From the NCBI GenBank assembly GCA_017412085.1, contig JAFPYS010000014.1, positions 1-62,965 on the forward strand: a stretch of 62,965 nucleotides of DNA. Direction: 5' to 3'. Positions within the stretch are counted from its first letter, which is position 1. Every line of letters begins with the position of its first letter. A program made the translations under genes and the position numbers. The notes under the pieces are model-generated. The model worked only from the letters and a program-made list of their open reading frames with translations, did not search any database and was not told where the DNA came from. Positions 5,966 to 7,667 of the stretch are shown here, one piece after another. This DNA is from Alphaproteobacteria bacterium. Its GTDB lineage: Bacteria; Pseudomonadota; Alphaproteobacteria; CAAHEQ01; UBA3637.

Positions 5966-5981
5966 TTTTCGCGAGATTCTC

Positions 5982-6023
5982 TGTAGCCCAGAGGTGTGGC
6001 CCCAACTGTAGCCCTGGGCTACA
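5982..6023. repeat. Inverted repeat at the left edge of the accessory block
   Basis: TGTAGCCCAG (5982-5991) and its exact reverse complement CTGGGCTACA (6014-6023) form a hairpin with a 22-bp loop. A second GC-rich hairpin (AGCTCCCC...GGGGCT) lies at about 6025-6044. These resemble REP-type palindromes. They sit immediately after the break in tag. Confidence 0.6.
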
Positions 6024-6083
6024 CAGCTCCCCTCCAAAGGGGCTCCAAAAAACGTCGTAAAAACAGGACATAATTTTTCTTAA

Positions 6084-6151
6084 TGGTGCGGGCTGCTTTG
6101 CGCTTATCGGACCCAAATTTCGGAGGAATTAAAAGCAAAATTACAAAAAAT
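6084..6151. repeat. Head module H1 of the tRNA-Thr-linked array
   Basis: A 68-bp sequence starting TGGTGCGGGCTG, repeated at 6745-6812 with about seven differences and no gaps. Read on the minus strand it ends in GCCCGCACCA and contains GGTCCGATAA, reminiscent of the T-loop and CCA end of tRNA-Thr (GAGTCCGATTC...GGCACCA). Read on the plus strand it gives an open frame in which changes are mostly synonymous or conservative. It lies directly before cargo gene 1. Confidence 0.75.
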
Positions 6152-6155
6152 ACAG

Positions 6156-6184
6156 TTGTAATCCATTAAACTTTTTGATATTCT
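6156..6184 (+). promoter_or_regulatory. Promoter for the lipoprotein cargo gene
   Basis: TTGTAA (6156-6161), 17-bp spacer, TATTCT (6179-6184), just downstream of head module H1 and about 20 bp before the start codon. Confidence 0.45.
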
Positions 6185-6204
6185 CTGAAGAGAGAGGTAT
6201 GTTT

Positions 6205-6603
6205 ATGAAAAAATTATTTGTAGTAATATTTGCAATTTTATTAGTGGGATGTGCAACACAAAATATACCAGGAATAGATAGCTATGAAGAAATAACTATG
6301 CCGATCTCAAAAAAAGAAGGTAATATCATTGTAAAGCGTGATAAAGGATTGATGGGAATAGCACTTGGTGCAGATCTTTATATCGACAATAACTTTATTG
6401 CAAGTTTGGGCTCGGGAAATTTTGTTCGTTTTAAACTTGATAAAGGTTCTCATTTTGTTTCAATTTCATCAGGAAAAGGAACTAATCTTGGTACTGCTTT
6501 TGAACGAACATTTCGACTAGATATCACAGATGATACGGTGAGAACTCTCCGTATATTTCCTATGCCTGGTCAAGGTATGATAATAGAAGAAACAATGAAT
6601 TAA
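6205..6603 (+). CDS. Small lipoprotein, DUF2846-like (array cargo 1)
   Basis: The ATG at 6205 is preferred because GAGAGG lies 7 bp upstream; ATGs at 6175 and 6199 fit less well. The 132-residue product starts MKKLFVVIFAILLVGCATQ, a lipoprotein signal with lipobox LVGC, so it should be anchored to a membrane after cleavage. The mature part is predicted all-beta: a GLMGIALGADLYIDNNFIAS stretch, then GNFVRFKLDKGSHFVSISS. This resembles the DUF2846/PEGA-type carbohydrate- or wall-facing domain, a weak match made by eye. It lies between modules H1 and T1 and is more AT-rich than the flanking core genes. Confidence 0.8.
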   Translation: MKKLFVVIFAILLVGCATQNIPGIDSYEEITMPISKKEGNIIVKRDKGLMGIALGADLYIDNNFIASLGSGNFVRFKLDKGSHFVSISSGKGTNLGTAFERTFRLDITDDTVRTLRIFPMPGQGMIIEETMN

Positions 6604-6633
6604 TATGCATTATTGATATTGAAAATATTTTAT

Positions 6634-6744
6634 GAGTCCGACAATTGGCGAATTTTGGCGATTTTTTGCAATCGGACTATCGGACTCGGCGAAACGCTTG
6701 CGGTTAAAAGAAAAAGCCCTCATTTGATTGAGGGCTTTGAAACA
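6634..6744. repeat. Tail module T1 of the tRNA-Thr-linked array
   Basis: A 111-bp module with a same-length copy at 7338-7448, about three-quarters identical by eye without gaps. It opens with an inverted repeat (GAGTCCGA 6634-6641, TCGGACTC 6680-6687). It ends with a hairpin (6713-6738) that reads as a T-tailed terminator on the minus strand. Head module H2 starts at the very next base. In the second copy the next base is the CCA end of tRNA-Thr, so T1 looks like a displaced tRNA 3' flank. Confidence 0.8.
6713..6738 (-). terminator. Orphan tRNA-type terminator in T1
   Basis: On the minus strand AAAGCCCTCA...TGAGGGCTTT is followed by TTC and T-rich sequence, matching the terminator behind tRNA-Thr at 7417-7442. 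No minus-strand gene precedes it, which makes it an orphan copy. Confidence 0.65.
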
Positions 6745-6812
6745 TGGTGCGGGCTGCTTTGCGATTATCGGACCAAAATCACAGAAGATTTAAAAGCAAA
6801 ATTACAAAAATA
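6745..6812. repeat. Head module H2 of the tRNA-Thr-linked array
   Basis: Second copy of the 68-bp head module, abutting T1 exactly. Compared with H1 there are about seven substitutions, which in the plus-strand frame encode A/D, Q/K, S/T and E/D exchanges plus two silent changes. It precedes the DUF805 cargo gene. Confidence 0.75.
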
Positions 6813-6878
6813 TATTGACTTAATTTTCTGATTTATGTAAACATATATATGTGTTTAGTCTAAACGAAAGGAATTATA

Positions 6879-7283
6879 ATGAATTTAAATAAGCTTATAT
6901 CCGGTAGAATGAATAGGGCGCCATTTGTGGGATATTTCTTCTTAATTCTCGCTGCAAGAATTGCTTTAGGTTGGGTTGTTCTGATGAATTTTAAGACCTT
7001 CATGAACAGCTCGGCGTTACTTTGGGCAACAAATCTTATTGATGTTGCTATTTCGTTAGTAGCAGTTTGGGCTCTCATTAAAAGATTACATGATCTAAAT
7101 TGGCCAACAATCTTGGCGTTTATACCTTTTATTTATGCTTTGTTAGGTTTTGATGTATTAGAAACAGAAATTCCTAAACTCATTTTTAAATGGACTATGG
7201 CGGCTCTTATTATTTGTTGTCTTTTCTTGAAAGGCGACAAGGGATCAAATAAGTATGGTCCAGATCCTTTGGAAAAGAAGTAA
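6879..7283 (+). CDS. DUF805 membrane protein (array cargo 2)
   Basis: A 134-residue membrane protein with the hallmarks of DUF805: the N-terminal FSGRxNR-like motif (LISGRMNRAPFVGYF), four hydrophobic segments, a cytoplasmic KRLHDLNWP motif and the C-terminal GSNKYGPDP. The function of the family is not known. The start follows AAAGGAA. Upstream (about 6836-6862) lies a near-palindrome, TAAACATATA/TATGTGTTTA, that could be an operator. A terminator-like hairpin follows at 7301-7324. It is bracketed by modules H2 and T2. Confidence 0.93.
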   Translation: MNLNKLISGRMNRAPFVGYFFLILAARIALGWVVLMNFKTFMNSSALLWATNLIDVAISLVAVWALIKRLHDLNWPTILAFIPFIYALLGFDVLETEIPKLIFKWTMAALIICCLFLKGDKGSNKYGPDPLEKK

Positions 7284-7300
7284 TCCTTGTATTTTTTAAA

Positions 7301-7324
7301 CCTCTACCATTATCTAGGTAGAGG
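7301..7324 (+). terminator. Terminator after the DUF805 gene
   Basis: CCTCTACC, 8-bp loop, GGTAGAGG, then TTATTT, starting 18 bp after the DUF805 stop codon. Confidence 0.7.
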
Positions 7325-7337
7325 TTATTTGATTAAG

Positions 7338-7448
7338 GAGTCCGATAATTGGTGATTTTTGGCGTTTTTCAGACTTGTCATTATCGGACTCAGAAAAATG
7401 CTTGCAAACAAAGTAAAAAGCCCACATTAGATTGAGGGCTTTAATACA
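7338..7448. repeat. Tail module T2 abutting tRNA-Thr
   Basis: Same 111-bp module as T1. Its inverted repeat is better kept: GAGTCCGATAAT (7338-7349) and ATTATCGGACTC (7380-7391), a perfect 12-bp pair with a 30-bp loop. The arms share GAGTCCGAT with the T-arm of the adjacent tRNA-Thr. The module ends one base before the tRNA CCA end. Confidence 0.85.
7417..7442 (-). terminator. Terminator of the tRNA-Val/tRNA-Thr transcript
   Basis: Read on the minus strand, AAAGCCC...GGGCTTT is followed by TTTAC. It starts 7 bp after the tRNA-Thr CCA and is part of module T2. Confidence 0.75.
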
Positions 7449-7523
7449 TGGTGCCGCAGGTGAGAATCGGACTCACGACCCCGTCCTTACCAAGGACGTG
7501 CGCTACCACTACGCTACTGCGGC
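7449..7523 (-). tRNA. tRNA-Thr (anticodon GGT)
   Basis: A 75-nt gene including an encoded CCA. Acceptor stem GCCGCAG pairs with CTGCGGC, discriminator A. Anticodon stem CGTCC/GGACG encloses the loop TTGGTAA, giving anticodon GGT. The T-arm reads GTGAGTCCGATTCTCAC, containing the GAGTCCGAT motif that recurs in the adjacent modules. It is transcribed after tRNA-Val from the promoter at 7639-7667. Confidence 0.96.
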
Positions 7524-7535
7524 AATGGCTCTTTT

Positions 7536-7612
7536 TGGTGGGCGACTACGGATTCGAACCGCAGACCCTATGCGTGTAAAGCATATGCTCTAACCAGCTG
7601 AGCTAGTCGCCC
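7536..7612 (-). tRNA. tRNA-Val (anticodon TAC)
   Basis: A 77-nt gene with encoded CCA. Acceptor GGGCGAC/GTCGCCC; anticodon stem TATGC/GCATA around TTTACAC gives TAC. The T-arm contains the standard GGTTCGAATCC. It is first in a two-tRNA transcript, 12 bp before tRNA-Thr. Confidence 0.97.
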
Positions 7613-7638
7613 ATATCTTCCACAAAAAGAATGGAGCC

Positions 7639-7667
7639 ATTCTAACATGCTTTCGGCGAAAAGTCAA
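7639..7667 (-). promoter_or_regulatory. Promoter for tRNA-Val and tRNA-Thr
   Basis: Minus strand TTGACT (7667-7662), 17-bp spacer, TAGAAT (7644-7639), about 27 bp before the tRNA-Val 5' end. Confidence 0.75.

Follow-up and report, generated by a model that had tools for sequence, protein, structure and literature searches.

Candidate single-gene cassettes stacked at the 3' ends of tRNA genes in uncultured gut Alphaproteobacteria

Two short genes, each enclosed by the same pair of repeated ends, lie directly behind a tRNA-Thr gene in the window, the 62,965-bp stretch of an uncultured alphaproteobacterial genome that was analyzed, raising the question of how such small units came to be placed there. 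A repeat search and ARAGORN confirmed to the base the arrangement read by the initial annotation, in which two families of direct repeats, H and T, follow the order H1, gene, T1, H2, gene, T2, tRNA, with both T copies terminating in the junction CA/TGGTGC. The T pair was recovered at 6629-6750 and 7333-7454 (76% identical, gapless, spacing 704) and the H pair at 6083-6149 and 6744-6810 (90% identity over 67 bp, spacing 661). Unit 1 (661 bp) consists of H1 (6084-6151, plus strand), a gene for a small lipoprotein (6199-6603, plus strand, within the open reading frame [ORF] 6175-6603, whose weak resemblance to DUF2846 is below threshold) and T1 (6634-6744, plus strand). Unit 2 (704 bp) consists of H2 (6745-6812, plus strand), a gene for a DUF805 membrane protein (6879-7283, plus strand, E 8.8e-14) and T2 (7338-7448, plus strand). 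Together the tandem units occupy 1,365 bp, and the last base of T2, 7448, is flush with the CCA end of tRNA-Thr(ggt), which occupies 7449-7523 on the minus strand. The only Rfam matches above threshold in the window were two tRNAs.

Comparison of the tRNA-Thr locus among relatives bore out the early proposal that units had entered repeatedly at a site resembling a tRNA 3' end. In genome G010, tRNA-Thr is directly followed by the flank that lies to the left of H1 in the window (5966-6083, 118 bp, no strand assigned; aligned to L048 of G010), and the 1,365 bp are absent. When positions 5966-6083 were joined to 7449-7640, the product aligned to G010 through the junction with a score of 208, compared with 67 and 157 for stretches that retained units. 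In addition, about 9 of 18 arrays had, on the tRNA strand and on the far side of their outermost H, a hairpin of the old tRNA terminator kind. At the tRNA-Phe locus, three species carried three different inserts and no clean empty site was found; when an empty tRNA-Thr site was sought in genus g3, the only matches were in G033 itself. These alignments demonstrate, at the level of DNA sequence, insertion of units flush with tRNA 3' ends, the tRNA being left intact.

The array had also been described as beginning where the gene tag is cut off. The tag ORF is indeed cut, after about 40 codons; direct adjacency did not hold, as the 118 bp of left flank intervene and contain the old tRNA-Thr 3' flank and terminator region (about 6048-6083). 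TGTAGCC-type repeats at about 5979-6027 within this flank adjoin the cut tag and appear to be a remnant of an older integrase-type element. Repeats of this type were likewise seen downstream of tRNA-Thr at L048:4190-4624 and L043:6356-6400, where they are apparently also integrase-element remains.

The six bases common to both junctions coincided with the 3'-terminal hexamer of the target tRNA gene (7449-7454 in the window). This hexamer was TGGTGC at tRNA-Thr, tRNA-Phe and tRNA-Arg(ccg), TGGAGC at tRNA-Gly(ccc), TGGTGG at tRNA-Lys(ctt) and TGGCTG in an array near tRNA-Gln(ttg), and the bases just inside it were not fixed. The hexamer that leads H deviates in some copies (for example, TGGTAC in the unit at tRNA-Phe), as would a displaced copy free of selection. 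Each insertion had been thought to regenerate CCA together with a terminator. The terminator part of this proposal stands, and the hairpin of T2 (7417-7442) is now the predicted terminator of tRNA-Thr; regeneration of CCA is not needed, since the crossover falls within this terminal hexamer. In a survey of about 32 tRNA species, tRNA-Thr(cgt) and some tRNA-Phe genes shared the T-loop TCCGATT of the target tRNA-Thr(ggt), and units with the AGTCCGAT motif sat mostly at tRNAs with this T-loop, tRNA-Arg(ccg) and tRNA-Gly(ccc) being the exceptions. Units at tRNA-Lys and tRNA-Met carried AGTTCGA/CGAACT motifs, and the T-loops of those tRNAs read TTCGA. We read this pattern, from small numbers in related lineages, as suggesting that site and target are co-adapted.

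T is composed of AGTCCGATA and ATCGGACT, a pair that spans 52 bp in nearly all copies, followed by a spacer, a hairpin bordered by runs of A and T, and xACA; in most sites, 55-58 bp separate the end of the right motif from CCA. In T1 the pair is AGTCCGACA (6635-6643) and ATCGGACTATCGGACT (6671-6686), followed by the predicted terminator hairpin (6713-6738), and in T2 it lies at 7339-7390 with the 52-bp span. H begins with the hexamer and carries ATCGGAC 22 bases in. A promoter-like pair, scored by consensus matches, was present at the inner end of H in 24 of 38 copies, mostly at a fixed place and with a 17-bp spacer; the commonest form was TTGTAA plus 17 bp. In unit 1 this putative promoter occupies 6156-6184 on the plus strand, with a -35 element TTGTAA at 6156-6161 and a -10 element at about 6177-6184. 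Several H copies that lacked the pair adjoined cargo in the opposite orientation. H usually carries this putative promoter, and T a putative terminator. The start of H, TGGTGCGGGC, compared with the reverse complement of the end of T, TGTTTTAAAGCCC, revealed no terminal inverted repeats, and the T/H junction of a joined form would read TTTAAAACA followed by TGGTGCGGGC. The halves of T appeared to be shuffled among copies. The inverted repeat within T was perfect or near-perfect; its covariation did not exceed that of shuffles, many pairs never varied, and flanking pair positions broke without compensation. At L053:7876-8079, L054:7441-7644, L045:3466-3668 and L141:9556-9750, T was longer, with palindromes (GGGACCGCCTACGGCGTCC and similar) in a stretch of about 90 additional bases that lies between the two motifs.

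When related genomes were searched for T and H, as the initial annotation had envisaged, 20 of 58 (the window's own genome and relatives, E ≤ 0.001) matched the T1-H2 region, and the paired T motif was found in 19 of 43 family genomes, compared with zero for a reversed control pattern. The repeats are therefore not attributable to chance. Matches to the peptide encoded by H were found in 20 of the 43 family genomes at E values up to 1. A scan for the H pattern in one genome per species of bacteria and archaea picked out 19 stretches from uncultured gut Alphaproteobacteria, along with three isolated matches in Lactobacillus and Variovorax that are probably due to chance. The H pattern had no match in viral contigs; the T motif had nine, which were judged to be at about chance level after the motif region was viewed. 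Phage and plasmid collections contained no match to the T1-H2 junction. Within the range searched, the predicted cassettes are confined to a single family of uncultured Alphaproteobacteria from the gut.

Arrays were then mapped with H and T profile models built on fetched loci, in genomes that were mostly draft assemblies, one per species. Units occurred singly, in pairs or in longer arrays with different cargo, in the recurring order old flank, H-cargo-T, H-cargo-T and so on to the tRNA. Unit size ranged from 0.7 to 4 kb, and most units held one gene. The anchor was tRNA-Thr(ggt) in many genomes, and tRNA-Thr(cgt), tRNA-Phe, tRNA-Arg(ccg) and tRNA-Gly(ccc) were also used; diverged versions of T were found at tRNA-Lys(ctt), tRNA-Met(cat) and others. 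The window's own genome (a 967-kb draft) contained one further unit, composed of H, two small ORFs and T and abutting tRNA-Phe. Cargo was patchy in its occurrence rather than fixed, and the junction rule was kept. Some T copies abutted a ~19-bp tRNA-Thr fragment left by other elements rather than a whole tRNA. Gene-free inserts of about 150-170 bp that end in a terminator and are bounded by a 19-bp tRNA-Thr 3' fragment were observed at L044:7453-7623, L060:191-357 and L045:919-1064. Two diverged arrays were seen at L144:5580-10315, each with a junction hexamer of its own: TGGTGG for the array at tRNA-Lys(ctt) and TGGCTG for that near tRNA-Gln(ttg).

Individual units were shared between species. 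The DUF805 unit of the window and that of G006 were 93.6% identical over 670 bp, with 98% identity in the cargo DNA, compared with 76% for lysS. This unit stands at tRNA-Thr(ggt) in the window and, alone, at tRNA-Thr(cgt) in G006; it was present in 2 of 43 genomes, and the lipoprotein cargo of unit 1 was present in the window's genome only. A different lipoprotein unit was 92.7% identical between G007 (genus g1) and G033 (genus g3) in a comparison restricted to the unit. Homology between these two genomes extended from the first base of H to six bases past T, corresponding to the shared hexamer. Aligned in this way, the units give clear evidence of spread both between species and between tRNA sites.

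The initial annotation had noted units without an integrase, and this was upheld by a Pfam scan of about 30 cargo ORFs, in which neither a recombinase nor a transposase was found. No full element with the same H and T ends was present in the 43 family genomes, and a recombinase whose sites match the motifs was likewise not found, the ~590-aa integrases examined having no ATCGGACT repeats beside their own tRNA. Tyrosine recombinases were present in every genome of the integrase search and were very few in several carrier genomes, so that a helper may be absent from present hosts. The PF00589 matches listed in relatives lay away from the arrays, with the exception of G002:C52, adjoining a 603-aa integrase of another element. 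The layout of T, with CCA, terminator and motif repeats, was the same as that at tRNA-adjacent ~590-aa integrase elements of the same family. Because the shared segment is six bases long and matches the target, and because the layout resembles that of these integrase elements, a helper acting in trans would most likely be a tyrosine recombinase. Tyrosine recombinases of ~590 aa were observed beside many different tRNA genes (L092, L096, L097, L099 and L213-L241), and most of those with the tRNA in view displayed CCA, a terminator and three direct repeats (TGTAACAC, TGGGACAC, CTACAGCA). A direct helper role for these tRNA-adjacent integrases is unsupported; the layout is the same and the repeat motifs (TGTAACAC, TGGGACAC) differ.

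The inner half of H was coding-like in the frame of its initial TGG, reading WCGLLCxYRTQIxEELKEKLQKIQL and a stop, as judged from 6084-6158 aligned with 31 copies. Synonymous changes made up a share of 0.455 of the single-codon differences, compared with a mean of 0.186 and a maximum of 0.376 in 400 column permutations. The stop of the peptide overlaps the -35 element TTGTAA, and by eye the diverged H at tRNA-Lys is open in the same frame to a stop. T gave no clear coding signal. Among matches with E below 0.001 in the 43 family genomes, no open frame longer than 80 aa was found that could represent a parental gene. The integrase gene dsiB of Dehalococcoides contains an att repeat (PMC3146451). 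By analogy, and speculatively, H may be a relic of the 3' end of a gene carried by an autonomous ancestor.

Taken together, the units are probably small site-specific mobile gene cassettes that lack a recombinase of their own and are moved by one supplied in trans. The free form, presumably circular, would join T to H and so create an attP of about 180 bp, comprising the paired ATCGGACT-type motifs and terminator of T, the TGGTGC overlap, and H, which would contribute a further ATCGGACT motif and, as a rule, a promoter. A trans-supplied recombinase, most likely of the tyrosine class, would recombine attP with an attB formed by the last bases of the tRNA gene. The tRNA would stay intact, T would become its new 3' flank and terminator, and the old flank would be displaced beyond H. 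The junction on the T side would remain a usable attB, and later cassettes would stack at the tRNA-proximal end. As promoter and terminator are usually carried by the cassette, its gene would be expressible wherever it landed. Several observations weigh against this explanation: a recombinase with matching sites was not found, neither a circular form nor excision was seen in draft genomes sampled one per species, and units riding on larger elements could account for the transfer.

An alternative view is that the units are leftovers of the CIME (cis-mobilizable element) type: integrative elements that have lost integrase and transfer genes, were stacked passively at one tRNA and moved only with larger neighbors. 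Accretion in tandem of att-flanked, integrase-less DNA at a tRNA 3' end is classic for CIMEs (PMC5704250), remnants of older integrase-type elements are present at this tRNA-Thr, and the coding signal in H may stem from the end of a gene since lost. The DUF805 unit, however, stands alone at a different tRNA in another species, and repeated random deletion would not be expected to leave units so small, with a common promoter and terminator and entirely different cargo; we regard this view as unlikely, if the most credible of the alternatives. A DDE transposase making a six-base target duplication is the chief mechanistic rival to a tyrosine recombinase, and would make the units nonautonomous Tn7-like or MITE-like transposons that target tRNA ends. 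Tn7-like elements choose fixed sites near genes. The flanking hexamer is the target's own last six bases and the end motifs are repeated, as transposase-binding sites would be, but H and T are not terminal inverted repeats, the bases inside the hexamer are variable and no unit scanned held a transposase. This reading appears quite improbable.

Still less probable, in our judgment, is movement of the integron kind, in which the inverted repeat of T would fold from a single strand into an attC-like hairpin for an integron-type integrase. One-by-one assembly of gene cassettes is the integron hallmark, and single-gene cassettes in arrays with one recombination site each, together with the near-perfect inverted repeat, would fit. 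The lack of covariation above shuffles, in a repeat many of whose pairs never vary, and the uncompensated breaks in flanking pairs tend to argue against such folding; the cassettes' own promoter and the lack of an integrase in the units examined also speak against this reading. The least credible proposal is that segmental duplication or homologous recombination made both units without site-specific movement. H and T are repeated and could recombine, and the halves of T seem shuffled, yet cargo differs in nearly every unit and one junction rule holds at several unrelated tRNAs. As a sole cause, this process is ruled out by the empty site and the cross-species units.

It is, to our minds, about as likely as not that the cassettes form a system of gene exchange of their own. 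Such a system would consist of single-gene cassettes that bring their own expression signals, dock at tRNA 3' ends and are mobilized entirely in trans; they would have diverged into subfamilies, each matching, in its overlap hexamer and paired motif, the acceptor end of the target tRNA and often its T-loop. A literature search returned no matching description of the same system. The units have attL/attR-like ends at a tRNA gene and no integrase or transfer genes. According to PMC5704250, which cites Pavlovic 2004 and Bellanger 2011 on CIMEs and on tandem accretion at tRNA genes, CIMEs likewise lack integrase and transfer genes, keep att ends and stack in tandem at tRNA 3' ends. As described there, they are decayed ICEs or IMEs, whereas the units here are 0.7-4 kb, mostly with one gene, have conserved 68- and 111-bp ends with promoter and terminator, and include single units common to different species and several tRNA anchors. 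Att-flanked, integrase-less accretion at a tRNA is thus the known CIME pattern; the small cassettes with putative promoter and terminator, their varied cargo, the sharing of single units and the several anchors set the present units apart and resemble integrons in use.

Other known systems overlap in part. Integron cassettes share single-gene units, varied cargo, arrays fixed at one end and a recombinase outside the cassette. They are usually promoterless, whereas a promoter-like pair occurs here without a sign of attC-type folding; the anchors here are several tRNAs per lineage, no integron integrase platform was found, and none lay beside the arrays as judged by general PF00589 matches rather than intI-specific models. 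Tycheposons of Prochlorococcus carry cargo, insert at tRNA genes, encode a tyrosine recombinase and are larger. The present units share the tRNA insertion and cargo and lack the recombinase and the size; of the features of autonomous tRNA-targeting elements, they display 3'-end insertion with an intact tRNA and no recombinase of their own in about 30 cargo ORFs. The pdif (XerC/D) modules of Acinetobacter, as described for example in PMC12907356, also have flanking recombination sites and no recombinase of their own. Those modules occur on plasmids and chromosomes at dif-like sites, whereas the present units lie at tRNA ends with no dif-like pattern by eye. The ssrA islands of Dehalococcoides (PMC3146451) are likewise tandem, with displaced 3' copies of the RNA gene and some members without integration genes; they differ in being larger, with a 20-bp direct repeat and, in many, the serine recombinase DsiB, compared with the six-base repeat and no recombinase here.

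If correct, the cassette explanation would give bacteria with small genomes (about 1-1.8 Mb) a second route for collecting single genes without a resident integrase. It predicts circular T/H junctions and hexamer-specific integration, and it points to a helper recombinase. The rule of T motif, terminator, TGG hexamer and H would allow arrays to be found in metagenomes.

The genes carried by the cassettes were diverse. Pfam matches among the cargo ORFs included GNAT, ABC transporter, glycosyl hydrolase 3, glycosyltransferase 2, radical SAM/SPASM, methyltransferase, serine hydrolase, DUF805, GDYXXLXY and TPR, and many ORFs had no match; one cargo set pairs radical SAM with methyltransferase. PADLOC returned nothing for ten cargo proteins. 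By eye, the cargo sets at L270:4829-6383 and L267:2886-4688 resemble a DNA methyltransferase accompanied by a partner gene and an OLD-like ATPase of a defense type, so some cassettes may carry defense genes. At L268:3914-5172, one cargo gene was tandemly duplicated, with a full-length and a truncated copy on either side of a T-H junction.
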